This document shows positions 1 through 61,177 of a stretch of DNA of 64,000 bases, in pieces. The translations under genes were made by a program, and so were the position numbers. The stretch spans positions 1 through 64,000 of the forward strand of contig JAEUWP010000062.1 in NCBI GenBank assembly GCA_018524725.1. The letters are read 5' to 3'. The stretch's first letter is position 1; each line of letters opens with the position of its first letter. The notes beneath the pieces are model-generated. The model was not told where the DNA came from, searched no databases, and worked only from the letters and a program-made list of their open reading frames with translations. Source of the stretch: Podaxis mareebaensis (taxonomy: Eukaryota; Basidiomycota; Agaricomycetes; Agaricales; Agaricaceae).

Positions 1-3000
1 GAATTTTCTCCAGGATGCTCTCAATGAGATCTATCAATTGAGACTACATTCATAAATTTTGAAGAGCTTTGAAATAGTGTCTGTCCCAACAGTAGATAGG
101 TCATATTCAATCACAGCATAGTGTTCAGGAAGGTATGATGGCTCAACTGGATGAGTGCCATGATTCTTCCAAGAGGCTCTGGGTTCAAATCCCAGTCTGA
201 TCAATTAATTGGAGGGCATTCTCTCAAATGGCTGAGTGGTGTACTACTATTCCAGTAGGTCCTAAGTTCAGGCTCTAGGTTGGTTAATTTTTGGTGTCTC
301 TTATTGTTGCTTTTCTATGACAATTTACACAAGTTTATGTACCCATGCTGTTGGCACAGACATGATTCAGTCCTCAATAAATATTTATTGGTATATTTAC
401 TAAATATTAGCATAATTTAAGTCCACTGAATACCAAATTCACACCTAAAGTGCAAATTTCATTAACTGCTACTGCTACTTGTCAAGTTGGCACTAACACT
501 ACAAAATCCCATTCAACTCCATGTTAAGTCTTTTTAGCATATCTCTTCCTACCTGTTCTTTGTTTACTCATACCATTGTTATAGGACATGTCTTCCAGTC
601 CTCAATGAAATATTATGATATACTACCCATACCTTAAGTATGTTATAATTCCAACCCCACTGAATACTCAATTAGCATCTAAGCTATATATTCCAATTTC
701 TAATCACCAATAGTTACCACTGACACCACTAGTTCATTCAACTCCCTGCAACACATTTTCTTCTGCCCATGTTACAAGGTTTCTTCTTTGACTGAGTGAT
801 GCCTAAGTCAGAGCCTATCCTTGTAAGAGAGATGAGCAGGGATCCTAGTCCTATACAGGTCAGTAGGAGCTGCTCTGTTTAACCTTGGGTGGCCGTTCAT
901 GTTGTCTCTAGGCAGCAAACTCATATAGATTACACACTCCATAGGACAAGACATTGACAAGAAGCCTGAGAGGGGAAAACTGTCTTCAAGGGTGAAGAGT
1001 TGTAGACTTAACATGCTACTGGTGCTTGAGGAATCTCACAAGTTCCAAGAGGAGGTAACATATGTTAAGATTAGACTTGGCTAATCTACAAGTCCAGGTG
1101 GTGTACATATATGAGTCCAATGACTACTTAAGGAAGTAGATCAATTGTAGCATAGAAGTCAAATATGAGGGAGGATCATAAAAGGGGAACATAGGGCATA
1201 GGGCATAGAATGAAAGTCTGCAAGAGCAAACATAATTGATGCAACATGAGTATAGCAGAAAGGTCAAAACTTATACCTAGTCCTAATAATAGGAAAGTGT
1301 CTAAGAATAGAAATGATAAGTTTAGTGTTCAATCACAGGTTGTCATTACAAGGGAAGTATACTCTGTGATAGTGACATGCTTTGTCTACCTTCTCACACG
1401 TTTCCCAATCAAGCATCTGTCAAAGTTCAGTGGTTTCCTGCCAGAGGCTGACCATCATACACTTCATCAAATCCCAATCTTCATATAGATGCTCTTCAGT
1501 TCCTTCAGTCTCCTCAGTGTTCTCAGAGTTTGCAATATTTGTAACAGCCTGTTTTCCATACTTTATAACTTTATCTTGTATTTTCAATCACCCAATCTCT
1601 TCTCTTATTAGAGCATATAGCTTCTGTTAGCCTTTCATCTTTCATCTATTCTGTCTCCTTTAATCTTAGACTTTATAGATGTTTCACATGTATTCATAGA
1701 TGTGTCAAGTTTCTCGTAGTACTGTACCAAGTAAGGATCTACAGAGGTATGGAAAACCCCCTAGATATGGGTCATAAGTATGAGCAGATACAGGTATAAA
1801 CTAAGACTCAATACTCTTCTCATGCCTATACTTTTGATAGTAAATTGGACATGTTTTATTTTCCTTTATAAAGACAGTGGGCAAGAGTTCTTGAGTATTG
1901 AAGTTATGATTTATATACTTCAAAGTAAGCCAATCTTCAACCTTATATATAGTTGCACCTCAGTCTCTGATAAATATGCCAGAAGAAGTTCCAGCAACTG
2001 TCACTTTAGTTGTATCTGTATAAAGAACCCCATGGGTTTCTTATACCCCCATATCCTTTATACTCCTGATCTACACCTGCAAAAACTTGTAATACTTTCA
2101 CAGACTATGTAAAGCACAGTAGATCCTATTTGTGTATTACACATACTATTACCTACTTGTCTACTCAGCAAAAGGTAATCTTTTATCTCTTATCTTCCTC
2201 TCTCAGAATCTCACTATCTTTTATGACCTGTCTATTTATCATCATCTCATTTTTATCTACTCTACTCTATCCTTCAGGTTGAAGCCCTAACATCAAGTAG
2301 ATGGTGATGTACTGACAACCTATATTTACCCTCACTATTGCTTTCACCTATCTCTTGTGGTCTTTAGATTTTAGTTATAAAGTCTAGCAGTCATCAGACT
2401 TAACCATTCCAAAGTATATCAGCTTATGTCTAGACATTCTCTAGCATACTGGTTTACTTGATTTTACTTAGATTTACTTATTCAATTATATCTACACCTT
2501 GTACAATACCTATTCTAGACTACTAAATATTTTACTCCCTATTATACCTAGGACCTGTTCCTTAAGGCCACTGTTTATCTTCATTGGTTTCAATTATCTC
2601 TAGTACTTCTTGGACTTTAGTTATGAAACTTAGTAGTTATTGCACTCAACTATCCCAGTTCAAGTCTATATTTCCTTTGAGTTTCCTCAGTCCACTGGTC
2701 CTATCCAAGTTTATTAGACATATTCTTTGGTCTACTTAAAACTATTCAAATAGCCTATCTAGTCCTGTTTATTCAGCTTTCTCTATCTAAGTACTCTTTG
2801 AGTGGCAAGGTTCATCTAATTTCATTCACTCTAGCCAACCTGATCCATTGAATTAGTCCATCCAAATAATCACTTAGCCTAGTTTAATTCACTCACCTCT
2901 TGTTGTGTGTGTTCTTAGTTAATTCAACTTGTCTTTCACTCAAGTCTGCTTCTCTGGTCTATCTATAGTCCATTCAAATAGCCTATCTAGTCTAGTTTCA

Positions 3001-3550
3001 TCCAGTCACCCCTCAACTCAAATGCCCCACTCTAGTCTAGTTGGTTCACTCACAATTCACCCAGTCCAATTATTAGTCTAATATTTGATAATCCCATTCT
3101 AAACTGAACCCATAATTCACTAATATATATTGAATGCATGTGTGATGTATGAGTACTAGGTTATAACCCTCAGTTGGAGTGTCACTGCTCCAAATTCTGA
3201 TGTTACTGGGTCAGACTGTGGCCAAACAAAGCCAAGCCAAATAGAGCCAGGAAGTGTTCTGGAGGGGATGACATTTAAACAGCTTAAAAGCATGACTAAT
3301 CATGACTAAGCCTGACTAATGCTGACTAAAACTGAGTAAGCAATATACTTAATGTCTGCTTCTTTATAGAAGATGTATAAGTACATCTAGTATGTTGGCT
3401 GTCCTTGCATACCCTAGAATGATTGTATGGTCCCAAATCCTTTTGTACCTTGCAAAATACCTTCCACAAACATGGCCTTTTGTGGTATTTAGTACATTTT
3501 GATGTATATATTGACTGTTTTTGGTATATATAGTTTTGGCCTTTTTGCTG
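1..3550. other. CpG-poor, AT-rich decayed DNA without a recognisable gene
   Basis: Apart from a tRNA-like repeat near the start, I see no conserved protein in any frame. The open frames here are short and of low complexity. CG dinucleotides are nearly absent while TG and CA are common, as expected of old methylated repeat DNA. Around 2,500-3,100 there are many TCTAGTC / ATTCACTC-like words, and at about 3,290-3,345 an irregular run of GACTAA units. Upstream exons of the split gene that starts at 3,551 could lie in the last few hundred bases, but none was found. Confidence 0.6.
130..300 (+). repeat. tRNA-derived SINE-like repeat, possibly dimeric
   Basis: TGGCTCAACTGG at 139-150 matches a Pol III A box and GGTTCAAATCC at 182-192 matches a B box in which the usual CG has become CA. 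The B box sits in a perfect T-arm: CTGGG, a 7-base loop, CCCAG (179-195). A second weaker pair follows, TGGCTGAGTGGT at 229-240 and AAGTTCAGGCTC at 264-275, suggesting a dimeric head. No clean anticodon arm can be folded, so this is not a functional tRNA gene. The SINE reading is inference. Confidence 0.45.
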
Positions 3551-4212
3551 ATGGAGGTTGCAGCAGATGTGACAAAGAAAGAGACCATCTAGAACCTCAT
3601 TCAGACCAAACTCAACTACCAGCAGTCCATGTTGAAATCACTAGTGAGTACACTTCTCATTTTACTTTTCTGTATTCTCATTCCAATAGATCCAGGACTC
3701 CATTGATGGTACCCAAGCTACCAGTATCCTTGAACTCACTCATGCTGCAATTAATATATACAGAATTGGCAAGGTCAAGTTTTTAATCCAACTGGTTGGC
3801 TGCATGGCATTTTTGGTAAATCTACCTCAGTCCATCACAATTTGGTTACTTACAATGTGTTTACTTGTAGTGCTGGGCCCATCATGAGGCTGAACTGAAG
3901 AAGAAGAAGAAATATTAGAATCTAGTGGATTCAGAGCTGGAAGAGACACACAAAATGTCACCAAACAGGTAGAATAAGTTATTTTCCTTTCACTTTCTGT
4001 TTCATTGTAGTATCTAACATGGAAGTAGATTCTTGAAAGCACTTCTAGTAGAAGATACAGAGCTCTATGGTGGCAAGGCAGAACTCAAAGCTTTGGAAGA
4101 GCAGGCTGAAAATGGTAATCAGGGTGTTGATAATGGCTTTGATGGTGGACCTGAATTGGGCAGTGATGATGATGACAATGACAATGATGAAGGAGGTGAT
4201 GATGACAGTGAC
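3551..4212 (+). pseudogene. Decayed gene with acidic C-terminal region, 5' part (split by transposon)
   Basis: Four exons can be read: 3,551-3,643, 3,690-3,815, 3,871-3,968 and 4,011-4,212, joined by introns of 42-55 bp with GT...AG ends. The frame carries through all junctions but contains three stops (TAG, TAG, TAA), so the gene is dead. The product is helical, with a Lys-rich stretch and then a long Asp/Glu-rich tail beginning after LYGGKAELKALEEQ. The family is not recognised. The frame stops making sense at 4,213, where an inverted-repeat element begins, and resumes at 15,250 after an exact repeat of the last eight bases. Further 5' exons may exist. Confidence 0.65.
4205..4212. repeat. 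Target-site duplication, left copy (ACAGTGAC)
   Basis: Eight bases directly left of the outer inverted-repeat element. The identical octamer stands at 15,242-15,249 directly right of it. Both copies lie in the same reading frame of the interrupted acidic-tail gene. Confidence 0.8.
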
Positions 4213-4370
4213 TACAGTCAGCTGGACATCCAAGGTTGATTTTTCACACACAAGTGGCTGGATGTCCAGTGCTTGTAAGGTCACATCACCAAGTCACAAT
4301 GTCCCAAGCAAAACTATCTATTGCACTTATAGCTATGTAGACCAATTATTAGGTAGATGTAGGTTAGCAA
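4213..4370 (+). repeat. Outer element, left terminal inverted repeat (CpG-decayed)
   Basis: Matches the reverse complement of 15,085-15,241 over its length, apart from the outermost ten or so bases. It contains GGACATCC and GGATGTCC where the right copy has the palindrome GGACGTCC twice. Nearly every difference from the right copy is CG changed to CA or TG. Confidence 0.85.
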
Positions 4371-6961
4371 TAATGTTAGTGGAATAGATGAGTAATGATA
4401 ATGAATGAAAGTCATGATGAATAGGAGGAAAGAGTGTAAGTAAAAAAAGCATCTAGTTTGACAGCTAGGTATCATCTGGTTTATCACTACTGTCATTGTC
4501 CTGGTCCTCTTCACCACCCACAGCTAGATTCTGAAGCTGTGACACTGTGATTAAATTAAGAGGAATATCCTCATCAAAACCAAGCTGTTTGCAGATCTCT
4601 CCACAACAGTGGTCCCTAAGGAATGCATTAATGCCTTTGAGACCAAAATCACCAATTCCTGAATTGCTGAATGGATGTTAATATTCATTGTCCAAAGGAA
4701 GATACAGGAAAGCCACAAACCATTCACCATGTACATCATTGGGTCAAAAAGGATAAGACCATCATGACCATCAATTTGGGTAGGGGTACCTATGTTACCA
4801 TGAGCTAAGCATCAAGAATTCAAAAAAAAAAGGTAAGAGTCACCTTGGATATTGGCAAAAATGAGTGAGCAGTTGCTGTGACCATATGTGAAATGAGTGA
4901 AGGCATATATTGTTGAGCTGCAGAGGTCCTTTCTCATCATCATATGGTTCAGAGTTCCACTGAACTGATAGATGGACTGTGATCATCATTTTTCAACCAA
5001 CCACATGATGCCATCTTCAATGCCAGTATAACTCTTGACATTTGAAGCAGGACTTGGTGCCTTTGTTGAATCCTTGTGAAAAAGGAAGGCATCAGCAAAA
5101 TGGATACTTATGAAGTGGTTGAGCTGATAGATAACTGGTTGAATGAAATCAACTGATGCACCCTTATCAACAGCTACACCAGACTTCAAAGACAACAAAT
5201 AGAAGGCTGACAAGAACCATTGACCTTAATACAGACAGCCACATTCAGCCTGAATCTGAGTATTATACATTTCTATATCAATGCCACCTGGCTCAAGTGG
5301 CCTTGGAGAATTGACTGCATCATCTTCACTCATGCAGAAGAATCATTTTGCAATGTATTGACCCATAGGGTCATGTTCAGCAAGGATAAGCTATAGAAGA
5401 GTGAATATGAAGTGATGAATATAGATTGAAAAAAATAATAAATTGACATACATCATATGCCACCTTCATAGACCCTTTTGTAAAGGGAACATCTTAGAGA
5501 AGGCCATTCACAGGGTCTTCAAGTTCATTGAAACTTACAGTTCCATCATCAGGGCTGACTGTGCAAATGATCTTGCTGAAGGACACTTTTATAACTTTGC
5601 AAATTGTTTGATAGCTCTGTTGGGCTGGCAACCAAAATAATGAACCAATCCCAGAGTTGATATTTCAGTTTGGAACAATGAATGCTAAATAAGTGTATCA
5701 GATATATATGGTGTTTGTAAAATGAAGGATTTGGAATGCACTGCTTGCAGTCCTTACATGCTTGACCAGTTGACTAGCTGAAGCAATGGAATTAGATCAG
5801 CAGCAGCAGTGGCTGTTCTGAGACAAGCATCTTAGCATCATCATTCTCCTGTCCAGTCTCTTTCCTGTATTGTTTATCAAACTGGTGATTGCTGTATCAG
5901 ATTTCATGAGCTGAAACTGGGGTAAAGATGATACATACAATATCAATGTGGATAAACCCCTCAAGACATATAACAGTCATTCTTTGACTTTTAATGAGAT
6001 GCTTGAATTGAGGTATGCCCTGAACAGGGGCAAGTGGTAGTTTTCCTGGAGCAGAATAGTGACATATGAAATCATGGAGTGTCAGGGTAGAAGTTCCATC
6101 ATCAAGGGTAAAGTTGTTGAAAAGCCAAAGTGAGATTTCCAATCTGTATTTAGCTATTAGGTCATTGGTGCTTATGACAGGAGAGATCTGTGATGACTTA
6201 CAGGTTAAGTGCCAATGCATTTGTTTTGACCCATTCAGTATTAAGCACATTTAATATATGACCCTGTATCTCTGATGTTAAAACCCTAAGTGTGAGCATA
6301 TATTTTCTTGTTGCAATGATATATAATGATATACCTGTCAAGTATGTTGAAAGGGAAAATGGATGGCTTCCTGCCCCTAGTTTGGGATCAATTGACTTGG
6401 CCTTATCACTTCAACAGAACTAAAACAATGTGAGGCCATGCTGAGTGAAATCATAATGGAAATCAAGATTAGGTAACATACTTGCCAGTATATCAAAGCC
6501 TTCACCTCCATTCCAACCCCTGCCAAGGCTTGTTCTTGATTCTTGAGTGAGGCAGTTGTGAGATCAGTTCCAGGAACAATGTTATGAAAAGCAGGAGTTT
6601 GCTTGGAATAATCATGGGTAGTAATTACCCAGTTCATATGTACATCTGACAATTCAGCTTGTGAGCTTGATGCACCTGGTGTAATAATGGAGAAAAATAA
6701 GAAGACAGTTCACAAGTGAATAAAAGAGGCAGGCTTACCTGACATTGATACATCTAGGGATTGTACTAATGATGTTCCCATCAATGGAACTTGAGGTCAG
6801 CTATCAGTAGACTTTGGTGAGCTTGCCACTCTACATTCAGGAGCTTGATAGATTTGGAGTCCACTGGTAGCCTTCTTCATATGATGGAATGACTTCCCAC
6901 ACATAGCACATTGTGGCCAATCCTGTGTGTGAATTTGAATGGGGATGAATATGAATTAAAG

Positions 6962-6970
6962 GGTCAGAAT
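6962..6970. repeat. Target-site duplication of inner element, left copy (GGTCAGAAT)
   Basis: Nine bases abutting the left end of the inner inverted-repeat element. The identical nonamer is at 13,036-13,044 on the other side. Both lie inside one intron of the alpha-kinase gene. Confidence 0.85.
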
Positions 6971-7179
6971 CAGACTCCTTCCCAGTCATGTGGGACACTC
7001 TTGAATAATATGATCATGTTGTTCCAAAGCTTTACTGAAACTTCAACAACTTTTAACATGTCCTGTAGACTGGCACACTTGTCACTTTATATTTATTTGT
7101 CTAAGGCATCAACTTGTGAGACAATCAACAAACAGGCATGTGAAAGCATGCCTCATTTCCAAATCAAGCTATCCCACTG
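6971..7179 (+). repeat. Inner element, left terminal inverted repeat
   Basis: 209 bp that match the reverse complement of 12,827-13,035. The outermost 15 bases are a perfect inverted match. The differences are scattered and mostly transitions. Confidence 0.88.
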
Positions 7180-7199
7180 CCATATCCCATTAAGATGTC

Positions 7200-9921
7200 A
7201 GTTCTTGAGTATTGAATTCCTTCAATTCCCAAGCTTCGAAAGGAAGTAGAAGACTTCTTTGGCATTTATTCTTGTGACTTTCAAGTCAGAGATACAATGG
7301 CTCAGCTCCAGAAACAGGATTGCATCACCATAGCTGCCACAGGGTCAGGGAAGACCCTTACATTCTGGATGTCATTGCTTTTTGTCAAGGATGGCATTTT
7401 CATCTTAATTACAGCATTAAATGTTCTTGGAGATCAGAATGTTGAAGAGCTTACAAGGCTAGGGATATCAGCAATCAACCTCACTGTTGACAATGCAACA
7501 GACCAAGCATTCAAGGTGACAATTTGGTTCTCTTTTCATCACAGAAACTCATGATGCATTACCAGGACATACTTAATCTGAAATATCATGTAATCATCAT
7601 CTCACCTGAAAGATTGCTCAAGGATATCTAGTTTCATTGTCTTTGGGAAAACAAGACATTTACCTCAAAGCTATACAAGGTATCAATCGACAAGGGACAC
7701 TGTATTAGTCAATGGGGCACCTCTTTTTGTCCTGAATATACACAACTCTACTGGCTGTGCTGGCTCCTTCCACCACATGTCTGTTTTTATGTCATCTCTG
7801 CCACCTTACCACAATCCATGCTACAGGACATTAGGAACAAGTTAGCTCTTCAGAGTGAGTGCTTGACAATCATATGCACCTCAAATAACCATCCAAACAT
7901 CTTTCTGGCAGTCAAAAAAATGCAGTATGCATTCAACTGCATGTGAGACTTGCAGAGGATACTCCGACTTGACAGTGGGATAAAGCCACTGAAGTTCATG
8001 GCATTTATCAATCAGCAAGTCCTCTCAGAGAAGGTGGTAGGAGTCTTATGGGAGGACTTACCCCTGGCAGCCCACAAGAAGGTCGTGTGGTTTCATTCTG
8101 GAATGAGCACTGAATTTTGGGAGAAACACATCCAACAATTGCACAGCAGGGAAATATGGGGTCTAGTCTGCACAGATGCAGCAGGGATGGTGAGTTCAAT
8201 GCTTTCAGATAAACAATACAGTTAATCTTACAGTGCGATCAACCAGGGACTTGATATTCCAGATATAGAGGTTGTGATACAGGTTGGGTATGTACAATCC
8301 CTTTGTACATTGCTACAGCACCTCAGTCACAGCATGCGGCATAAAGATCAATGTGCAACTGGAATATACCTGGTCAAAAAGCAATATTTTGATGGTCCAG
8401 GCCAGCCAAAGAATAGGGGAAAGCAGAAGCAGACTGGCCACAGAAAGGAAGCCACCAAGAGAGTCTGCTGGAGTGCTCTGGAACCAGAGGGAGAGGTAGA
8501 GGAGGTGGAAGAGGAGGAAGAGGAGACCACCTTGAGTGAGGATGGTGGTGAGCTAGGATACAAAGATAACCAGTGTCCCAAAGAGAAGGGACAGGGTTGC
8601 AGTGGTGAGACACAAGGGACACTGACTTGTGACATGGGAAACGGCAGCTTTTCCAGTGGGGACATGAATGTTGATGATGGCAAAAGTGAGGATGGGGGTG
8701 CCACTGGACTGGAGCCTGTAGACAGGGGCAATATGGGTGATAGTGCTGGGTCTGGTCATCAAGCGGCTGGTGGTAAACACATACCATATCCCTCTGTGGT
8801 CAAAGATCCATGCTGCATCCCTTTTCCATCACATTCATCATTGTCCAGCGAGGAATACGAAATTGCTGTCATAGACCTTTTCATCAACACTTGATCCTGG
8901 GGCTTCTGTTGGAGGGCAGTTTGTGACTGCTACTTTGAGAATCATCTTATAAGTAGGTGGAAAAATGCACAGAGAGATAGGTTACTCACCTTGTACACAG
9001 AGCCATCAAAGGATGAGTGTCGCTGTTTCCAGTGCAAGGATAAATGCAACAATGTGGAATCAGGAGGATCACATCCCTGTTGTGACTCTTGTAATCCAGT
9101 GATGTTTGTCAGCCTGCTGTTACCAAACCCACCACCCAAACCCCCCCATGCAAAATGCAAGTTCAAAGTCAAGCAGCCATATCCCATGTCAACTACTGAC
9201 GGCCACCTGAGAGAGGCATTGGACTCCTGGCATCTTGGGATGATGAAGGAATTGGCAGGGGGGAATGACGACTTCTTCAGTCCTGAATTTATCATGACCA
9301 ACATCCTGATGGAACATATTGTCGACCTAGCCCATTTTGACAGACTCTCAACTACAAATGACCTTGCAGCACAAACCAACTGGTGATGAACAGCTCGATT
9401 TGGTGATGCTGTCATAGCCATTGTCCATCAGTTCTATCTGCCAGTGCTACCACCTCTGCCTCCCCCATCTGCCTCCACCCTCACTGCCTCCATGCTCAAC
9501 AATCAACAAACAGCTGTGGGCCAAGTCAAGCATGTTCGCCACTGTGGAATATGTGGCTCGAAGACTCATATCAGTATCCTGTCTATCTCCTCTCATTAAC
9601 TGTGTATTGACCACATCCTTAGCGAACAATCAACTCTGTCCCCTGTATTCACAATGGTCAGCAAACAAGGAAAACAATAACCTACCACCCACTGCCCCAT
9701 CTTCCATGGGAGCTAGCCAGTCTCAGCAATGTAGAGCCTGCAAGGCCTTCAGTCATATTGCTTCAAGCCAGATCTGTCCTAAGTGGGTGCCCAAGGACGA
9801 GTGTTGTTGTTTGAAAGAGGGACAGGACATGGAGAATATAGTAGATAATCTGGTGAGTATCCTACACTGCAAGGTCCTGTGCTTCGACCTCCTGCTGATC
9901 CTCTGCTATTGTCTCAGGTAA
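7200..9921 (+). pseudogene. RecQ-like DEAH helicase (transposon-borne), damaged
   Basis: The first conserved block is KLRKEVEDFFG at about 7,230. Next comes Walker A (AATGSGKT, about 7,330), an intron at about 7,516-7,544, motif SPERLL, a DEAH motif altered to DKGH in SIDKGHCISQWG, SATLPQS (motif III), and the second RecA domain with FHSGMSTEFWE, VCTDAAGM and GLDIPDIEVVIQ. A long acidic Ser/Gly linker follows (about 8,480-8,760), then a Cys-rich end: CRCFQCKDKC, CCDSCNP, and two knuckle-like motifs, CGICGSKTH and CRACKAFSH (about 9,530-9,790). Such 3'-to-5' helicases unwind DNA and are amplified in Agaricomycete genomes. In-frame stops and the altered DEAH box suggest this copy is dead. The 5' start is not resolved. 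Confidence 0.72.
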
Positions 9922-12708
9922 CAGTAACACATTTGTTGTCTCAATGTCATTCATGCCCAGTAACATTCGGTCCAGCACTGCAAAATGTGACATATATCCT
10001 GGAGTAAATATGTGAGGGGTGTTCAATTCAAATTCTTGGTGCAGCCTTGCAAGTGTCTTGGTCATGTCAGGAGGTAAATGCCAGATAGTCCTGTGTTCCA
10101 AATAAAAGCCTTCCTCAACAGTGACATGACATTTCCTGAAGAACTCAATGAGGATAGACTCCTCTAGGATTCATGGAAGAGTCCAGTTGGAGCCAGAGCC
10201 ACCATAGATGACCTGCCTCTTGTTTAATGAAGCTGTCTATATGCACAACTGGGGGAACACTGACCTTGGTATATAGATTGTTCTGCTCCACTAACCAGTC
10301 CACACCACAAAAGCCACCTTCTTTGCCTGTTGGATTACACAGCCAATTCATGTGTATGAGGTGCCTATAAACATGGTGAGCTCATGCTCTCTGAGAATGC
10401 TTGAAAGGACTGACACAAGCTTTGCAGGATAAACATCCTCAAGGTTGAGCATCATTTGCATCAAATGGAATGTGTACTTATGTTTCCCAGTGGCTTTGAA
10501 GATATAGATCCATGGTAGAAATGTTGCCTCCATGCGCCCAATATCTCCTGAGCTCATTGCATGAACCAATTCTAGGTAAAGGAGTTCATCCCGGTTTTGG
10601 AGCAACTGGTTCTCATAAACCATATCCTGTTCTTTTTCAGTTCCCTTTCATAGCTTCGCAACCTTGGTTGGAGTGCCAACATATGTCTGCATGATGGTGT
10701 TTGACATTTTGACAATGATGTTCCACAATGGCTTGCTTTTCACAAATGCTTCAAGGGATGTATTTGCTGGATCCTGTGCTTGTGCCTCTGATGCCCAGCA
10801 ATCAATCATGGAAGCCCATATATCGTGTTGTATCAGGTGATGCATGCATTGAAACCCTGGTTTCGACACCAGCTTACCAGTGTCATTAGGACGTAGAATA
10901 CCTGCATGTTGATACATGCTATTGCTGTCCTTCCAACCAGCTACTGGTTGGATCCAAGTCTGCCAGATTGCCTCAGCACATGCCATTTCATAATGGAAGA
11001 GTCCTGGTTGGGTAACAGCATACTGGATGTGCCATTTTGGTGTATCCTCAATATGGCGGCTTTTCTTCACAGTAGCAATGTGTTCCTTTGTGAGGAGATC
11101 ACCATGTATGAGGAGAATGTAGTCTGAGATATCAACCACTTTGTCTGACTCCTTATCAAACTCCTTGCCATCCCAAGCTATTGCAGCACCATCCCATATG
11201 TCACTGCCTTCCATTGTATCATCAGATTGATCTGATGCAGTGTCATCTGTGACAACAGCATCAATATCCATCCCCTCTCCACCTGACTTGATGTCCATTT
11301 GTTCATTGGGCCTCTCATCATCTCTACCTTTATCCTTCACTGTCTCACCAAGTCCTCCTTGCTTCAGTAAGTTCTCAAGAACTTGTAGGTTTCCATCCAT
11401 TGTTGACTCTTTGATGTCCATAGCATGACATGGCATTTGTTCAGTTTTGTGTAGTGGTATTGGATTGATAGGTTCAGGCATTCCGAGCTGTGGCTTGAAG
11501 TGTGTGAACTCAGCTACTTGATGAACCAGATATTGTGAACATACCAAGATAAACGATGTGCATGTGCACTCATCTCTTCACCTGGCTTCTTTATGGTACC
11601 ATACTTGTGGTGAAATTGCAGGAGATCTGTGTTGTCAACTGTAATCTTTGAAGGAAGGTCTGGATTGTTGGGGTCTTTCTCCCACAACTCTGCTGAGCAT
11701 CGTAAGTCCTCTTTGCTGTCCAACCCATATATCAGAATTGCTGTGGCACTTGTTGCACTGACAAACATGGTATCCTTTCCAACAGTTGGTTCAGCCACCC
11801 AGAAGGTCATATTGAAATTGTCATATGTAAAGGCCATTGTCAGGGTGCTAACAGAATTGTGGAGCTTTTGGCTTGCTTCCTGGGATAATGATTTGATTGT
11901 GTTGTGTATTGAGGTGAGGGTGATGGACATTCCTGCATGTGCTAGTGTCTCAATGACTTTTTCGGGTACAGATGCTGAGTGGTAAAAGATGCCAAGAATG
12001 CTTTGGAGGTAATTACATCTCTTATTTGTGCTTTGGAGGAGAATTGACAGGATGACCACAGATTTCTAGAACAGTTTAGTAGTTTCATTATTACATGGTG
12101 TACAAGTGACTCACAATAATGTCAAGAGCTGCATTCCAAGCCTCAGTTTGCTCAGCTTTCCTCCTTTTCTTTTTCTGAGATTGACTCTCGTCCTCAGCTA
12201 CTGCTGAGCCATCGGTTGGATGAATAAGTGTATCTCCAAGCTTGTGTCCTTCTTTGTCTGCCTGTCTGCTTGCCAAGCTCCTAATCGAATCCTCCTGGTC
12301 ACAGTGTGGTGGATGAGAATGACGATTGGCATGGAGGACCTCTTGCATCATCCTCCAGGTCCATGGTGAGACTACCTTCATTTTCTCTGCTGCTTTGCCC
12401 ATGAAAGATCCTTCGAGATATGTGGAAGATGCATTTTTGGCATTAAAGTGGAAGCCATGATCCCACTGGCTCAGAGTTGATAGCTCTGTCTGCAGTTTGA
12501 GGAGCACAAGGTCAAACACCCATGAAAAGATAATGTTGGGGTCATAACTGTGGAGATCATTGGCAATCTGAAGGACATTGTCACAAGTGAGTGATATGGG
12601 AGTATCTGTGTTGCTTTTTCTGAGGACACTGCTCATAAATGAAGATATAGTGAGGTTGTGTGCTTGTAACTTTGCCAGAATATCATGAAGACTCTCATTG
12701 AGTGACAT
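9862..12708 (-). pseudogene. DUF6589-domain protein (transposon-borne), nearly intact
   Basis: The start is the ATG at 12,708 (MSLNESLHDILAKLQ). Exon 1 contains a basic KKKRRK patch and ends at a GTGAGT donor near 12,113. The intron has a CTAAAC branch site and an acceptor near 12,066. The middle exon contains FTYDNFNMTFWVAEPT, and a long acidic region follows. The C-terminal DUF6589 blocks are GRMEATFLPWIYIFKATGKH, WLCNPTGKEGG and DWLVEQNNLYTKV, then PDMTKTLARLHQEF. DUF6589 is a basidiomycete family of unknown function found next to mobile DNA. Few breaks are visible, chiefly at 10,624-10,648 and 10,102-10,145. Its place opposite the helicase inside one TIR pair makes it a candidate transposition protein. 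The domain name is from memory. Confidence 0.7.
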
Positions 12709-12826
12709 GGCCAAGGTCAAGATATAAATTACTATCATAATCCAATACAGATATCTGTATATCACAAGGCATCACATGCAGACTCTATTTCCAGAACTTA
12801 TCTGATGTATTAAAATTAGAACGTGT

Positions 12827-13035
12827 CAGTGGGATAGCTTGATTTGGAAATGAGGCATGCTTTCATGCACCTGTTTGTTGATTGTCTCACAAGTTGATGC
12901 CTTAGACAAACAAATATAAAGTGACAAGTGTGCCAGTCTGTGGGATGCATTAAAAGTTGTTGAAGTTTTGGTAAAGCTTTGGAACAATGTGATCATATTA
13001 TCTAAGAGCATCCCACATGACTGGGAAGGAGTCTG
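12827..13035 (-). repeat. Inner element, right terminal inverted repeat
   Basis: Mirror copy of 6,971-7,179, ending CTGGGAAGGAGTCTG. It lies about 120 bp upstream of the DUF6589 start and so probably includes that gene's promoter. Confidence 0.88.
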
Positions 13036-13044
13036 GGTCAGAAT
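13036..13044. repeat. Target-site duplication of inner element, right copy (GGTCAGAAT)
   Basis: Exact copy of 6,962-6,970, directly outside the right TIR. Confidence 0.85.
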
Positions 13045-13435: not shown

Positions 13436-15037
13436 ATGGTTAACCCAAAAGGTGTCAACAGTTGGGGAGAGAAACAGTGTAAGTCACACTAGAACTATTT
13501 TTAGTTCAAAGTTGGCATTATTCATGAAAATGGTTGATAGACCCACCTGACAAGATACTTTGCCCATATCTCCTGGAGCTTGCCAAGCACTCACTTACAG
13601 TGAAGGAGAAGCTCATTTGTATACATTTGGACCTCAATATAGAGATAGGGTAAGTGTTATTTAATTGTGACATCACAAACTCACTGGCTCAGCATCATGG
13701 AAGGCAATTGACATTCTACCAATGGTAGAAGCAGATGGAGATTCCAAGTGTCTGGAAGCCTGGGCTGGCACCAGAGGAGGTCCAGGAAGCTATCCTTGAG
13801 GAAATTGAGGGTGATGCAAACCAGATGAAGAGACCTGCCACTGTGATGGAAAATCTGAAGAATAAGCTTATCCTGGTTCCAAGGTACATCAATATCTACT
13901 GTATACACCCATGATAAATCTTAACTCTGCTTGTAGGCATAGAATTCATGAATTGATGTGGCAATATAGACCTGATGGGTCTAATTTGCACTTCCCTGGC
14001 AAAATATGATGGAAGATCTGTTGCAAACCACTTACCTCTATTGGACGATTTCATGAGATACCTGCAGATGGACACGAAAACTGAATCAACAAGCTTTGAG
14101 TATGGGAAATCTTAGCCTTCCAATATATGCTTATCAGGACAAATGGTCTGGAATGATCTTGAGGCTTTGCACTATACCTAACACTTGTAACTTACCAGGT
14201 GCCATTGGCCATCTCTTTCTTGACTTTGTTCAAGAGTGGGAAGGTGAGTCATTTGTTCTCATGATTCTCAACACCTGCTGATAGTTCAACTAGGTATACC
14301 TTTGTAGTTGACAACTGACAAGGGTTCTGAGATCAGATGGCAAACCACAATTCAGGCTATTTTCAGGTAGGTATTTATCAGACTATACTAGTGACTAGCC
14401 TACTGATTCGGCTGGTATTGTCCAGGCAATTTTATGCTCCTAATGTTGACATGGATATTTATCCTCCTTCAGTCACACTTCCAAGTACATGTAACACTGT
14501 GATTGAGAGTCTTTGGAGGTGGCTGCACAAGAAGGCAGGCCTCAACTTACATGACATCATTCTGACCAGTAAATATGAACATTGTTTCCACAGAAATAAT
14601 GAACATCACCAGTAAGTCACGTTCATGTTTCTTGGACCACAACATCACTAACCCATCACAGTGACTTGTTCTACTGGGTGTTCATGCCCCTCATTCAACA
14701 GGAACTTGACAAATTCCGTGACTATTGGAACAATCACAAGATCAGAAAGCAAGCCCAGAAGCTGATGCCCTCTGGTCATATCCCCACTGATGCATTGTGC
14801 TATCCCATTTTGTTTGGGGGAAGGTCATGTCTGATCTGTGTACCTGAAGAGGCCCAAATGGACATGCATAACATTCTCACTGAAGAGGTCGGACAATGTG
14901 ACAAACATCTCTCATGGTATAGTGAAGATTTTCATCAGGAGGCCTCAGTTGCGTATGGTGCAATTGGCTCTCCCCAACTTTCGTTGGGAAGTGCTTGGGA
15001 GATATTCACTATGATGGCTGAAAAAATGTCACTTTAG
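13436..15037 (+). pseudogene. DDE integrase-like (rve superfamily) gene of the outer element
   Basis: Starts MVNPKGVNSWGEK and is split by at least six short introns, several with GTAAGT donors (for example after about 13,646, 13,882, 14,242, 14,365 and 14,610). The integrase core reads IYAYQDKWSGMIL (first D), LTTDKGSEI (second D) and NTVIESLWRW (E), giving a D-D-E triad. It is followed by LFYWVFMPLIQQELDKFRD and RNNEHH, typical of a basidiomycete integrase-core family. The C-terminus has PILFGGRSCLI and the stop is TAG at 15,035-15,037, 48 bp before the TIR. Occasional in-frame stops (after the HFPGK and IPL blocks) make it non-functional as it stands. As the only DDE enzyme in the outer element it is the likely transposase. 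Confidence 0.7.
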
Positions 15038-17559: not shown

Positions 17560-18197
17560 TCTAGGTTCTGAGCCCCGGTTAGCATGATGAAGGCGGAGTA
17601 TCATGGCTATACTCGCTAGATCGTCATAGAAAGTCGCTGAAAGCCCGAGAGAATTAAGTACTCAACAAGCCGGGGAAATTTTGGTATTAGGAAAGTAGAA
17701 CTGTAGAATCTTGTGCCTTGACGGAAGGAGTTTCTCCCTGGGGAGGATTAACAAGCTTCAAGTTTCAAGCACTTGTCGTGAATGACTCTGAGCGGTGGAA
17801 AGGCGCTTCTCGGCGCCCATGCTGCTAAGCGGAGTGAGGTCCCCTGGAATTGGCGGGGGCGGCGGTTTGTAGGATGGGTTGATGAGAGGGTTTTCTTAGG
17901 TGTAGCCTACCTCGACGGACTGCTATCGAGCCCCGGCTAATAGGATAGCGTAGACGCTTCCCGCGGCTCAACGTTTGTAATGGCCGCGCTGGCACTGACC
18001 AGAATAGAATTGATCCAAAAAAAAAAGGGGAAGGCGCTTCTGTTACGCGTCGGTCACGATCAGGCACGTCTGGTAACGCATCTTCTCCTTGCTGTCTTAG
18101 TGTCTTAGTGGACCAGCCACGGGTGTAGTAATATGAGACAGACTGACTCTTTAAAGCCATAGATACATGTGAGCAAGCCTACTTCGCTTGAACCCCC
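17560..18197. promoter_or_regulatory. Divergent intergenic region, NBS1 and unknown gene copy 1
   Basis: Contains an A10 tract at about 18,018-18,027 and an ACGCGT (MCB/MluI-type) site at 18,044-18,049. The last 90 bp are duplicated before copy 2 (about 20,290-20,378), so they probably hold the promoter of the unknown gene. No other gene is seen. Confidence 0.5.
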
Positions 18198-19155
18198 ATG
18201 GCAAACCTCATTCGCTCAGCTAAGCCTGTCGATCGCTGGACCGACTACGACCTTCGCGCTTTTAACATCCAAGTTGTCAACAAAAACACAGACGAATTCT
18301 TTGGCCACCCCCTTCCGGAGCAACTGGACGTTTCTCCTGGTATCTTGAACAATCTGGACGAACCATCTATCACATCCGTCAAAGAGAGTGAATTCTTTGC
18401 GTATCTACGATATACTATCACGTTCTGTACAGAGAAGGACACCTTTGCGATTGACTTTGTTGCTGCCGTCCTCAGACTTACGGGGTATAGTTCTAGTCAT
18501 CATATCATTTACACGCGGACAGAGATCCCGTTTGTGATGTGTGGGGAGAATATGTTTGCCAAGACAGATGTGTGTATCATGGAGGGAGGGCGAGGTGCGG
18601 GGAGGTTTCTGATGCTTGTGCAGGAGGATAAGGTAAAGAAAATTCAATTATTCTGTGTTCACCACGCTAACCAGTGAGTAGGAACCCCCGTGCGACTTAG
18701 GGTATGAGCCAGGGCCTCAGCTCATTGCAGGCGCCATTGCTGCATTCTATTGGAACAACTTCTCAAAATGGCAAGTTGGACTTCCCACAACCCCAGCGGC
18801 CGTGATTCCTGGCATCGTCATCTGCGGCAATGCACCAATCTTCTACAAGATTCCCGTTTCAGAAGCTCTCGTTGAGGCAGTTATCACTGCCCAGTACCCT
18901 CCTACGGTCACCACAGTTGAGAGGCTTGTACCACCTGTCCCTGATCGTCGGACATACCTAGAAGACGGTATGAAGCCTTTGGAGAACCGACGAATTGTCT
19001 TTCAGTGTTTCCAAGCCTTAAAAACACTAGTGGGTTGTCCCGGCTCTTTCAGACGTACACTGACACTCCCTGAATACCTAGGTTCACAATGTATATCCGT
19101 AGTGTGGTCTCTTGCGAATACTCATGTTTTATTTTACCTCAGATTAACATTGTAG
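18198..19155 (+). CDS. Unknown basidiomycete protein, copy 1 (possible PD-(D/E)XK fold)
   Basis: Exon 1 is 18,198-18,632 (MANLIRSAKPVDRWTD... to LMLVQEDK). Exon 2 most likely starts at 18,709 and runs to the stop at 19,153-19,155. Compared with copy 2, exon 2 starts with two extra bases (GGTATGAG instead of GGTGAG), so copy 1 needs a different acceptor or is frameshifted. It also ends later because of a one-base C-run difference. Conserved blocks are FFGHPLPEQLDVSP, KTDVCIMEG..LMLVQEDK, PQLIAGAIAAF, PIFYKIPVSEALVEAV and QYPPTVTTVERLVPPVP. The Asp followed by EDK on a strand-like segment recalls PD-(D/E)XK nucleases; that is inference only. No signal peptide or membrane segment. Confidence 0.7.
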
Positions 19156-19790: not shown

Positions 19791-20378
19791 CGTCCCCTCT
19801 CTCCTTTCGTGTCCTATTCCATAAAACTCTCTGCTTGCCGGTCATGTGTCTAACCTCAGACACCCTCCCCGCTTCGCCGCGACGGACCCCTGCACCACAC
19901 ATAATTGCACGTTTACTGTATCGCATGTTTACTTATGCCGCATGTTAATACACCCACTCATCATATCTGAACTACACTCCGTTTAATCTATGGTACTTCT
20001 GCCTGCTCACAAATCCCCTTTTCCGCCCTCTCTATGGAACCATTGTCTCACCTTGTACTCTTCTCCTTGGGTTGCTCATAACGCAGCGACATCATGTTTG
20101 ATGCTCTGATCTCTCTCTGACTAAAACCCCTCGACAAGGAGAGCAAATCTGCCGATGGACTGTTTGTGAGTCTACACAAATCCTGCAATTCCCATCCGAA
20201 TTTGATCAGGGTACCCTACCCCCTATATATAGGGGAGCTGACGCCCTTGCAAGTCGATGTTATACTGGATCAGCCAGGTGTGGAGACGCCAGTATCACCG
20301 GTGGTGGTAATATGAGACAGGCGGACTCCTTAAAACCCTAGAAAACATGTGGGGAAGCCTACCTCGCTTTGAACCCTG
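19791..20378. other. Intergenic with a TATA-containing palindrome upstream of copy 2
   Basis: Nothing coding is recognised. At about 20,219-20,234 lies the perfect palindrome CCCCTATATATAGGGG, about 150 bp before the ATG of copy 2, a possible core promoter element. The last 90 bp repeat the region before copy 1. Confidence 0.5.
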
Positions 20379-21255
20379 ATGGCAAACCGCATTCGCTTAG
20401 CCAAGCCTGCAAACCACTGGATTCAGAGTGATCCCGATGCTTTTAACATCCAAGTCGTCACCAAAAATGCAGACGAGTTCTTTGGCCACCCCCTTCCGGA
20501 GCAGCTGGATGTTTCTCCCGTAATCTTGAACAATCTGGACGAACCGTCGGTCGCATCCAACGCAGACAGTGAATTCTTCGCATGTCTGGAAGAAACCACT
20601 GTCTTCCATTGTAATAGAGAATCCTTTGTGGTTGATTTTGTTGCTGCCGTTCTCAGACATACGGGGTATGGCGCCGGTCATTGCGTCATTCACACACGGA
20701 GAGAGATTCCGTTTGAGATGTGTGGAGAGACTGTGGGTGCCATGATAGATGTGTGTGTTATGGAGCGAGGACGAGGCACGAAGAGATTTCTGATGGTTGT
20801 GCAGGAGGATAAGGTAAAGAATATCCAGTTACTCCGTGGTCGGCCTGCTAACCAGTGAGTAGCGACACCTATCGGGCTTCGAGGGTGAGCCAGAGCCTCA
20901 GCTCATTGCAGACGCCATTGCCGCATTTTCTTGGAACAACTTCTTAAATCGGCGAATTGGACTCCCCACAGTCTCCCAGGCCGTGATTCCTGGCATCACC
21001 ATCCGTGGCAGTGCACCAATCTTCTATAAGATTCCCGTCTCAGAAGCTCTCGTTGAGGCAGTTATCACTGCCCAGTACCCTCCTACGGTCACCACAGTTG
21101 AGAGGCTTGTACCACCTGTCCCTGATCGTCGGACATACCAAGCAGATGGTATGAAGCCTTTGGTGAACCGACGGATTGCTTTTCAGTGCTTCCAAGGATT
21201 AAAAACACTAGTGGGTCGTCTCGGCTCTTTCGGACACACACTAACACTCCCCTGA
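20379..21255 (+). CDS. Unknown basidiomycete protein, copy 2 (possible PD-(D/E)XK fold)
   Basis: Exon 1 is 20,379-20,813 and exon 2 20,884-21,255; both keep one open frame across a 70-bp intron. The start MANRIRLAKPANHWIQ, the blocks FFGHPLPEQLDVSP, MIDVCVMERG..LMVVQEDK, EPEPQLIADAIAAF and PIFYKIPVSEALVEAV, and near-identity to copy 1 in exon 2, mark a recent tandem duplicate. The start-to-start distance is 2,181 bp. The frame is cleaner than in copy 1, so this is probably the working gene. Function unknown. The D...EDK arrangement suggests, but does not prove, a restriction-endonuclease-like core. I recall similar proteins as abundant hypothetical genes in Agaricomycetes. Confidence 0.75.
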
Positions 21256-54327: not shown

Positions 54328-57300
54328 GAGTGAGTTTAGAAGTGGCAAGTTTTTGGAATGGAGGAATGAAATGTCTCTTCTTATATTCTATCAAGATTTT
54401 TGAAGCGTTCCTTGTCAAGTTTTCTTCGTCTTCCCAAGTGTTGTCTGAATTCGGATAACCTTTCCAGTGGACGAGATAGGCAGTTTGGCTTCAGCGAATT
54501 TTGTGGTTAATTATAGATTCAATTTCGTACTCTTCTTCTCCATCTATTAACTCCGGTTGAGACGGTTCAGGTTCAGAGATATTCTGGTCAGTCTTCTTGT
54601 ATCATTTCAAGAGAGAGACGTGGAATGTGGGATGAAGTTTCCATGTGGTAGGTAGGGCGAGTTCATATGCGAGTGGTCCTTTTCATTTCTTGACAGTAAA
54701 GGGGCCATATCTTCAGGGATGAATCTTCGCTTTCTGTTCCTGCAGAGGGAGGTTTCTAGCATCTAACCAAACTTTGTCACCTTTCTTGTATGTCTCAGTT
54801 TGAGGCGTTCTTCAGGCGATCATTCATTTAGCGTTTTCCTTCATGACTTCTGTGGCATTGCATCAGGATTGATCTATGTCAAATAGTCATTTGTTCAATG
54901 CAGGGGCATTGGTTTGGATGAGGAGTTCAGGGATAGGGGGAGGATTGTATCTGTAGAGGAGCTTGAATGGCGTCTTCTCATTTCTGGCATGCATGGTTGA
55001 GTTATACTTGTATTTGAAGTGTGACAGTTTGTCAGCCCATGACTTGGGATCTTTGTAGCAATACTTCAATAGGTATACTTCGAGTTCCTGGTGCGATCTT
55101 TCTGTTGCTCCATCTGACTGAGGGTGATAAGCAGTGGATAGTTGTAAGTCGATACCTAGGGCAGAATAAAATGCTTTAGCAGCTTTCCCTGCCCATCTTG
55201 GATCTTGATCTGCTACAATTGAGGCAGGAATTCCACAGCATGGATAGAAGTGCTTTGTAAGCAAAGTGGCTATGTCTTTGAAGGTCACCATTTTCGTAGT
55301 CGGTAGTACTAGTATCCCCTTTGTAAGTCTGCGGTCCACCACAGACAATATGGTGTCATAGCCTTCTGCGGTCTCAGGTAGACCTGTGACAAGGTCCATG
55401 GACACATCTGTGAAGGGATGTAATAATGGTGATGGCTCCAGGGGGTGAAGGGAAGGGTGATTGGGTCTTCTGTCAATATTAAATTGTTGACAGATATGGC
55501 AGCCTGTAACGTAATTTCAAACGAAGTCTCAAAGGCCTGGCCAATCAGTTTCTGTGCGAACTTGGCGAATTGTTTCATCAATGCCTGGGTGTCCTGCAGA
55601 GTGATGATCGTGATGTCACGTGAGGATCTTGCATTTTTCATCTAACAATGGTTGTGATATGGAAGATGATTGTGGTGCAGTCTGGAGTGATGGTGATGGA
55701 GGTAATGTACCATCTGCTGTGATAGCATCGACAAAGAGTTCTTTCAGGAGGAGGACTATCGATGTTCTCTTTTGACTTGTTGACTTTGTGGTCTGGTTGT
55801 CTAGAGAGTGTGTCAGCGACTGGTATTGCCTTGCCTGGATAATGTTTGATGCAGAATTTGTATTCCTGCAGTTCAACCCAGGTTCAGACGTGTCATTTCG
55901 ATAGTTTTCTGGCATCTTGCCAGTGTCAGAGGTTGTCATGATCCGATCAAACTTTGATTTTGTAGGGAGTGGAGTGTAGGTAGTGGCACCATTCATCAAA
56001 GGCTTGCTTGATTGCCAGGAGTTCCTTATTGGGTGTGGCATAGTTTCGCTCTGTTGGGGTTAATGACTTTGATTGGAATGCACATGGGTGTTCATTTCCA
56101 TTGTCATCTTTTTGGATAAGTACTCCACCAGTGGCATAATCAGAAGCATCAGTCTTGACGATGAAAGGTCTAGACATATCTGGTGTGCGAAGGAGGGGTT
56201 CTTTCTGGAAGGTCTCCTTCAAGGCTGTGAATGCATGGTCTGCAGCATCGTTCCATTCGAAATTCTGGTTCTTTCAGAGGAGTGCATTGAGAGGGGCGCA
56301 TAGATGGGAATAGTGATGTATGAATTTCCTATAAAAGTTAGCAAAGCCGATAAATTTCCATACATCTCGGACACATTTCAGTCTAGGCCAATCTTTGATA
56401 CCAGCCAGTTTGTCTTTCGACATTCTGATCTGATTATGAGAGATGTTCATCCCAAGATATTCAACAGATGTCTGTTCGAATTTACACTTCTTGGGTTTGA
56501 CGTAGAGATCATTCTCTCTCAGCCTCTTCAGAACTTCACAAGTTTCTTTTTGCAAAGAAGAGAGGTCATCAGAGAAAATAAGGATATCATCCATGTAGAC
56601 AATGACTGTGGTGCATCTGGGCTTGTCTATCAGGTCATGAAAGATATGGTCCATCATTGCTTGGAATGTGGCCAGACTGTTAGTCATTCCAAAGAACATG
56701 ACGTTTGGTTCGAAAAGACCAAAAGGGGTTCGGAAGGCGCCTTTCCATTGGTCACCTTCTCAAATGTGGATATTGTTATATCCTGCACAAATATTGAGAG
56801 TAGTGAAATACTTGGCGCCCTTGAGGCGATCTAGTATTCCAGAAATAGAAGGAATAGGATATGCATTTTTCACCGTGAACTGGTTCAAATGTTTGTAGTC
56901 TTGAACAGGTTGCAGCTTTCCATCTTTCTTCGATATGAAGAAGAATGGTGTGGCTTGCAGGCTTTTGGACTTCCTGATGTAACCTTTTCATTGGTTGTCA
57001 TCTAAGAATTGCTTTAACTCTAACAGTTCATTGTCTGTCAAGTGGTACAATTTAGCTGCTTCGGGTTTAAAGTCTGGTTTTAGGTCAATCTTGTGATCAT
57101 ATGGTCATGAAGGAGGATATCTTTCTGATTCCTTTTCACTGAATAGGTTTAGGTAATCCCAATAAACTTTTAGGACGATGTCCTTCGGATCCACTGACTT
57201 CTTTGAGCTGTGGTATGCCTGATAGGACTTCTGTGCTTCTGAGATCTTGGTGTTGATCTCTAGAGTGGCATGCGCTAGGTCAAGCTGTGCTTCATAATTG

Positions 57301-58045
57301 AGTCTAGCTTTCCTGCGGATGGAGTGTGGAACATTCTCAGTTGCCTTTTCGGCTAACTGGATATGGTCGATCTGGATCTCATTTTTGGTATCCATTTTAT
57401 TGACATTTATAGCAGGGATCTTAGATCTCCTGTTTCGCCATCGAAAGGTATGTTTCATCCAATTGATGTCAGGGTTGTGTTTCTCGAGAAACGGGAGGCC
57501 GATGATCATTGGTCACTCTCCAATTTCTGCAACATAGCAAGTAACATCTATGTCATGATTATCTATGTGTAGCTGCAATTCTGCTTGTGCAGTAATGGCA
57601 TGTCCTACGTTCATAGTACCATCGACATTTCACACAGGTATTGGTTTAGTCAAGGGTATTGTTCTTAACCCAAGCTGTTGAATGGTCGAGGGAGAGACGA
57701 AGTCTCCTTGAGCACTGCTGTCAAGTAGTGGGTAAATAGTAGCAACTGTGGAGGAATTCGGATTCTTTAGTATGGCCGGGATATACAGGGATTTGTTGTT
57801 GGTTGATGCTGACAAACAGATTTCAGCTATCATTGGCTCAGTAGAAGAGTGGGTAGTCAAAGTCTGGTCTGAGTTTAGATCTGTAACCGGTACAGGAGGT
57901 TCTCTAGACAGTTTCCTACTTTCTATTTTATGAGCGAGATATTTTTGAGTGGTCCAACAAGAGTCATAATGGTTCTGTATATCGAAAGGAGGTTCAAAGT
58001 TCATACTAGAATTCGAAAGCTTGGGAGGACTCAGAGGCGTTGCCT
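54314..58045 (-). pseudogene. Chromovirus pol: protease, RT, RNase H, integrase, chromodomain
   Basis: Lies in the -1 frame relative to gag. In order: aspartic protease (PLLDSSAQGDFVS, with Ser where Gly is usual; IIGLPFLEKHNPDINW), reverse transcriptase (FFISKKDGKLQPVQDY; FFGMTNSLATFQAMMD; VIVYMDDILIFS), RNase H (VKTDASDYATGGVLIQKDD; PNKELLAIKQAFDEW), HHCC zinc finger, integrase (DLVTGLPETAEGYDTI; STAYHPQSDGATERSHQELE) and a chromodomain (AYLVHWKGYPNSDNTWEDEE, about 54,400-54,480). TGA codons replace expected Arg codons in many places (for example 56,274-56,276). A one-base frameshift near 55,750-55,800 separates RNase H from integrase. No standard slippery heptamer was found at the gag-pol junction. 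Confidence 0.9.
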
Positions 58046-60397: not shown

Positions 60398-60512
60398 GTT
60401 GGATGACAGTCCAGACAAAAGGTCGGAGGGTGCTCCACTGAAGTTATCTTGCAGGAGACTTGGGTCAACTCATAGCCATGAGGACAAAAGAGAAGGAAAG
60501 GAGTGGAAGTGG

Positions 60513-60523
60513 AGCTTTACGAT
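60513..60523 (-). promoter_or_regulatory. Candidate self-primed primer-binding site
   Basis: Read on minus, ATCGTAAAGCT lies two bases after the 5' LTR. Its exact complement, AGCTTTACGAT, stands at the predicted transcript start in the 3' LTR (52,304-52,314). In the 5' LTR (60,821-60,831) one CG has become CA. This is the arrangement of self-priming Tf1/sushi elements. Confidence 0.65.
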
Positions 60524-60525
60524 TC

Positions 60526-61172
60526 TGTTATGTAGAGACGGTTTCTACACGTCGTCTCAGTGCGGAGAGATACTGTCCTAAGACACCCCAACACTATTAA
60601 GTTCCTAAAGTGGAATGCCCATCTGTTCTCTGGAGAGAACTAGAGGCTGGTCGGCAATCTCGTAGGGACTGCCTAGGGAGAGATACAACTTGTAAGGTCG
60701 CAGGCTACTCTGTAGGTTTAGCTGTTATGCCAGTTATCCTGTCGAGGCAGGTAGAGCTCTCATGTAGCAAGAAGATAAAGCGGAAGACAGTCCTCACTAT
60801 TCTTGCACTATGTACAAATGATCATAAAGCTAAGTTCTACTTACTTTATGAGCTATCTAAATATGAAGGCGATTGCTATTCTATGTGTCCTCAAGGAGAA
60901 TCTTCATAGTTACTCCAGTACTCTAAGTATAGAAGACTGAGCCTGAGGTAAGATGAGATCTTCGGGAGGCAAGCTATTATTACACAACATATCACTGAGC
61001 CCGAGTGCTAAACATAGTACATCTTCGGAAGCTCCGAGGTGGGGCCAAAGTTGCAATGGAAGGCAGGTCAAGATGGACACTTGGAGTCAGGAGGCAGAGA
61101 GGTGGTTGACAAGCAATGAGGCAGGAATGTGAAAGAGGCATGGAAGACAGTGGAAACAAGAGGAGTGTAACA
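60526..61172 (-). repeat. Chromovirus 5' LTR
   Basis: 647 bp, the same length as the other LTR. Almost all differences from it are transitions at former CpG sites, in both directions. The predicted transcript start is 60,831, with TATTTA about 32 bases upstream. Confidence 0.92.
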
Positions 61173-61177
61173 TTCCA
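61173..61177. repeat. Target-site duplication of chromovirus, right copy (TTCCA)
   Basis: Matches 52,004-52,008. Confidence 0.85.

Follow-up and report, generated by a model that had tools for sequence, protein, structure and literature searches.

A helicase-bearing DNA transposon in Podaxis mareebaensis, probably of AcademH type, with a DUF6589 protein as its most likely transposase

Introduction

Two genes, one for a RecQ-like helicase and one for a protein with the Pfam domain DUF6589 (PF20231), lie between long inverted repeats in a 64,000-bp stretch of Podaxis mareebaensis DNA (contig JAEUWP010000062.1 of assembly GCA_018524725.1, positions 1–64,000; hereafter the window). Is this locus a transposon, which of its proteins would move it, and is it of a new kind, as was proposed in an earlier model-made note (the sequence-only reading)? 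We consider it, with a probability of roughly three in four, to be a DNA transposon of AcademH type with two genes, present here as an old and inactivated copy.

Ends and target duplication of the window element

From ends read directly and an alignment of its inverted repeats, the element was delimited as a DNA transposon of 6,065 bp (window 6971–13035). Its outermost letters were CAGACTCCTTCC on the left and GGAAGGAGTCTG on the right; it opened with CAGACTCCTTCCCAGTCA, and its closing bases were the reverse complement of CAGACTCCTTCCCAGTCA. The left (6971–7179, plus strand) and right (12827–13035, minus strand) terminal inverted repeats (TIRs), paired by inverted-pair and repeat alignments, were 90% identical over 209 bp, with the outer 25 bases the same at both ends. 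An exact 9-mer, GGTCAGAAT, was read directly at both borders (6962–6970 and 13036–13044, no strand assigned). When the flanks were compared, 9 of 9 positions matched at a length of 9, and no other length from 2 to 12 gave more than 3 matches; the best of 90 mismatched flank pairs taken as a control reached 6 of 9. Two convergent genes, each starting just inside a repeat, were recognised with TIGR00614 (helicase, plus strand) and PF20231 (DUF6589, minus strand). The identical terminal 15-mers, 209-bp repeats, flanking nonamer and converging gene pair of the sequence-only reading were all recovered in this way. No empty site for the window copy was found in the assembly, where its flanks matched only themselves.

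A second full copy and its empty sites

The genome (36.95 Mb, 429 contigs) was searched with PF20231, and all five candidates were scored, the counts being lower bounds. The five matches fell at two loci, the window and contig C264, both within such elements. The C264 element was 6,049 bp long (L014, 1614–7662), had inverted repeats of 216 bp at 97% identity, shared 18 identical terminal bases and the two convergent genes with the window element, and was flanked by an exact 9-bp duplication, GTAGGTACT.

When its flanks were joined, 23 genome matches were obtained: its own two flanks, 10 spanning copies and 11 partial ones ending short of the junction. The 10 element-free copies matched from base 82 or 92 to base 399–400 at 90–97% identity; they ran past base 200 and therefore spanned the insertion junction. 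In all eight of the spanning loci that were aligned, GTAGGTACT was single, with nothing inserted. These empty sites, with their single GTAGGTACT, are direct evidence that the element inserted with exact ends and duplicated 9 bp of its target.

The host of the C264 insertion was a dispersed repeat with at least 10 other copies at 90–97% identity (L041–L048; contigs C190, C91, C5, C374, C1, C4, C280, C383, C235 and C64).

The DUF6589 gene and its predicted fold

The DUF6589 gene was spliced and occupied 9865–12708 on the minus strand, with its start ATG at 12706–12708 and its C-terminal end near 9865. PF20231 matched two exons (E values 1.5e-39 and 1.2e-22), and the protein was 43–47% identical to Agaricomycete proteins P0001–P0003. 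Several in-frame stops, one of them a TGA within the Pfam match, and, by reference to the C264 copy, an apparent frameshift interrupted the window gene.

Structure prediction placed the DUF6589 protein closest to the Hermes and P element transposases, with a predicted RNase H core interrupted by a helical insertion, as in hAT; an earlier model from 16 sequences (predicted local distance difference test score 53, poor) was discarded. Candidate catalytic residues were located on the minus strand as follows. The first Asp, in a YDN motif at 11820–11822, was D in 126 of 133 aligned proteins and lay upstream of the Pfam domain, the PF20231 model beginning downstream of it. The second Asp, in an HGD motif, was at 11098–11100 (D in 117 of 120). 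The candidate Glu, in a GDxGRxE motif, was at 10528–10530 and the Asp of that motif at 10543–10545 (each conserved in 99 of 101). In P0001 numbering the putative triad would be D304, D509 and E699. Between the second D and the last E, where C/DxxH would be, the proteins had G-x-x-H, with the His at 10993–10995 (H in 126 of 128, and G three residues earlier in 121 of 128).

A DUF6589 profile (A3) run against PDB sequences gave a single chance-level match to an unrelated designed protein (E 0.25). In a viral fold library the best match (E 0.043) was to a Pandoravirus protein whose name refers to the hAT dimerisation region, and no relatives were confirmed in viral contigs or prokaryote genome contigs. 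An exact 17-mer of the element terminus was seen in an IMG/VR contig (L053, 2870–2886), probably by chance.

At least 178 homologous proteins were found in mushroom-type fungi and metagenomes; among the matches listed, the named ones were from Agaricomycetes throughout. A second subfamily, of YDNLN type (P0016 and P0092–P0178), had 20–28% identity to P0003. Both loci of the Podaxis genome were of the first type.

The predicted fold, the conserved acidic residues, the empty sites and the position of both genomic loci inside such elements make the DUF6589 protein most likely the transposase of the element.

The helicase gene

The plus-strand gene is, by sequence similarity, that of a RecQ-family helicase. 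It was spliced and occupied approximately 7216–9801, the 3′ limit being set where translated similarity to the C264 copy on the plus strand stops. It matched PF00270 (E 2.5e-7) and TIGR00614 (E 5.9e-35; the score of 120.9 bits falls short of that model's curated cut-off, 219.8), and its best PDB matches were RecQ1 and BLM, followed by WRN and others. Motif I, ATGSGKT, was found at 7336–7356 and a motif II-like sequence, SIDKGHCISQWG, at 7683–7718. TGA and TAG codons broke the reading frame of the window gene. A RecQ-family helicase was present in both full copies.

Selection on both genes and decay of the window copy

The window and C264 copies were compared codon by codon. For the helicase (578 aligned codons, 49% amino-acid identity) the ratio of nonsynonymous to synonymous differences per site (pN/pS) was 0.39, with 228, 172 and 378 differences at the first, second and third codon positions; for DUF6589 (824 codons, 55% identity) it was 0.37, with 274, 209 and 490. 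From these ratios and the codon-position pattern, both genes evolved under selection for a working protein during at least some of the period since the two lineages separated, and by this pattern the helicase seems to be more than a passenger.

The ratio of observed to expected CpG was 0.13 in the window element versus 0.83–1.00 at 16–48 kb of the window; in the C264 element, more lightly decayed than the window copy, it was 0.40. With both genes broken and CpG depleted, features absent from the sequence-only reading, the window copy is in our reading long dead. To its left, window 1–6970 had a CpG ratio of 0.01 and, in an open-frame scan, no frame longer than 115 aa; it is apparently an old block decayed by methylation.

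Short relatives and deletion derivatives

When up to 3 mismatches were allowed, the 18-bp terminus occurred at 107 places in the genome versus 42 for a reversed control. Ten terminal pairs, drawn from the window and the retrieved regions and so covering a part of these 107 places, were examined for duplications. Four (window, C264, C275 and C268) had 9-bp duplications matching at 9 of 9, which differed in sequence (GGTCAGAAT, GTAGGTACT, TCATGAGCC and TGCTAAGTA); a fifth, on C130, matched at 7 of 9.

The C275 copy was a miniature inverted-repeat transposable element (MITE) of 102 bp; across 92 bp it resembled the C264 repeat at 95%. The C268 derivative (L051, 4189–5220) was bounded by TIRs with ends CAGGCTCC, placed with the aid of its 9-bp duplication, and held a 5′ fragment of the helicase gene. 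Another deletion derivative, on C394 (L049), had 206-bp inverted repeats at 99% identity and a helicase fragment. Helicase loci were surveyed on the six contigs with matches at 40% identity or more; C415 and C32 (24–31%) were left out.

Comparison with known transposons

Terminal inverted repeats are a feature of Academ transposons. The target duplication is TTAA in Kolobok and 8 bp in hAT and P elements, and Mutator-like elements (MULEs) combine long inverted repeats with 9-bp duplications. AcademH itself was reportedly described by Kojima in 2020, in Mob DNA 11:15.

In the available part of PMC10045372, AcademH elements are helicase-bearing DNA transposons of animals and fungi with 9–10 bp duplications. 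According to the available part of PMC10799480, both AcademH and KolobokH have DEAD and Helicase_C domains, and AcademH occurs at low copy number in Basidiomycota, Ascomycota and Mucoromycota. As far as these sources describe it, AcademH resembles the window element in being a DNA transposon with a helicase next to the transposase gene, low in copy number and found in Basidiomycota, and the 9-bp duplication lies within its 9–10 bp. The TIRs (209 bp at 90% in the window, 216 bp at 97% in C264) are shared with Academ. Academ is also counted among the DDD/E superfamilies (PMC9587614, available part), and the DUF6589 protein, judged by predicted fold and conserved residues, would be a DDD/E transposase. 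The window element fits AcademH in every feature tested, in a comparison of described features. From the helicase and the duplication length we infer that the DUF6589 protein may be the Academ transposase itself.

The kind of transposon is therefore very probably known already: helicase-bearing AcademH, with its 9–10 bp duplications, was already published in 2020 (PMC10045372, available part). The sequence-only reading was right that the locus is a transposon and most likely right about DUF6589 as its mobiliser; the novelty of the type was not supported.

Several observations weigh against our reading. Five of the ten terminal pairs lacked a duplication (2–5 of 9 matching), and no target duplication was found for the C394 derivative. 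Among the helicase loci, the C353 match had no flanking inverted repeat and the C150 match only degraded ones.

The most serious alternative, which we regard as improbable though worth keeping in view, is a separate DDE superfamily, distinct from Academ, in which a DUF6589 protein of Agaricomycetes with a hAT/P-like fold and G-x-x-H acquired a dedicated RecQ helicase in its own right, separately from Academ and Kolobok. In its favour, the predicted fold is closest to Hermes and the P element, sharing with them the RNase H-like core, a long helical stretch between the second D and the E, and a conserved His in that stretch. The available part of PMC9587614 names hAT, P, MuDR, Kolobok and Dada, and not Academ, as superfamilies with C/DxxH between the second D and the last E, the interval that holds G-x-x-H here, and the restriction to Agaricomycetes of the named homologues among the matches listed points the same way. 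The element nevertheless differs from hAT and P in that no sequence similarity was found in the PDB profile search, in that G replaces the C/D of C/DxxH, in its 9-bp rather than 8-bp duplication, and in its helicase partner. Against a separate superfamily, a helicase with 9-bp duplications is the AcademH combination (PMC10045372, available part), and a second independent origin would be less simple.

Very unlikely is a non-autonomous MULE carrying two captured host genes, for which a MULE transposase would be supplied from another locus. Its long inverted repeats and 9-bp duplications would be MULE-like, but the MULE transposase domain PF10551 was absent from a six-frame search of the genome, on which ground a MULE origin was rejected, and from the ten scanned exon pieces of the window element; the separate transposase envisaged as a refutation in the sequence-only reading did not appear. 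Moreover, both genes are under purifying selection across two diverged copies, and DUF6589 itself has a transposase-like predicted fold.

Equally hard to sustain is an identification as KolobokH. The available part of PMC9587614 describes a RecQ helicase within this fungal DDE transposon, downstream of the transposase domain, but here the helicase is a separate convergent gene. The TTAA duplication of Kolobok also differs from the varied 9-bp duplications here, and KolobokH was rejected on duplication length and gene layout.

A Helitron-like element driven by its RecQ helicase, with DUF6589 as accessory or cargo, is scarcely credible: the C268 derivative, with TIRs, a 9-bp duplication, a helicase fragment and no DUF6589 match, could speak for it, but inverted repeats and duplications are signs of cut-and-paste transposition (the ground on which a Helitron was rejected), RecQ helicases are not known to have strand-transfer chemistry, and the predicted DUF6589 fold is DDE-like.

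Proposed mechanism

For an AcademH-type transposon, the DUF6589 protein would act as a DDE transposase that binds the long (~210-bp) inverted repeats and, as its predicted fold and the duplications suggest, cuts at CAGACTCC with its D-D-E site. Joining to the target would be staggered by 9 bp, and host repair would convert the stagger into the duplication. The RecQ-like helicase may be a dedicated accessory that unwinds the ends or clears a strand-transfer or gap-repair intermediate; the selection on it points to an obligatory or favoured partner of the DUF6589 protein. Gene-less MITE-like copies, with common ends and duplications, would be mobilised in trans.

Neighbouring sequences

Just to the right of the element, open frames at window 14331–15034 contained a FRDYWNNHKIRKQ...MPSGHIP stretch; we take them to resemble fungal integrase-like transposon proteins. 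Similar proteins with the common stretch FNIQVV.KN.DEFFGHPLPEQLDVSP were encoded at 18192–19155 and 20373–20858, the two being local duplicates of an unknown gene. Frames at 54887–63049, presumably Gypsy-like (integrase, reverse transcriptase), apparently belonged to two different retrotransposons.

Significance

In the open-licence literature searched, no relevant paper mentioning DUF6589 or PF20231 was found, nor any paper on a RecQ helicase with TIRs in Agaricomycetes. Within that literature, identifying DUF6589 as a transposase may thus be new in annotation. Its nature was perhaps overlooked because the Pfam model starts past the first candidate Asp. A domain of unknown function would thereby be predicted to act as a transposase, with its candidate catalytic residues named. 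Genes annotated as DUF6589, together with some of the ‘RecQ helicases’ annotated in Agaricomycetes, may then be transposon genes. Why a cut-and-paste transposon keeps a RecQ helicase of its own becomes testable, and if a DUF6589 superfamily did gain its helicase independently, helicase recruitment would be a recurring solution for such transposons.
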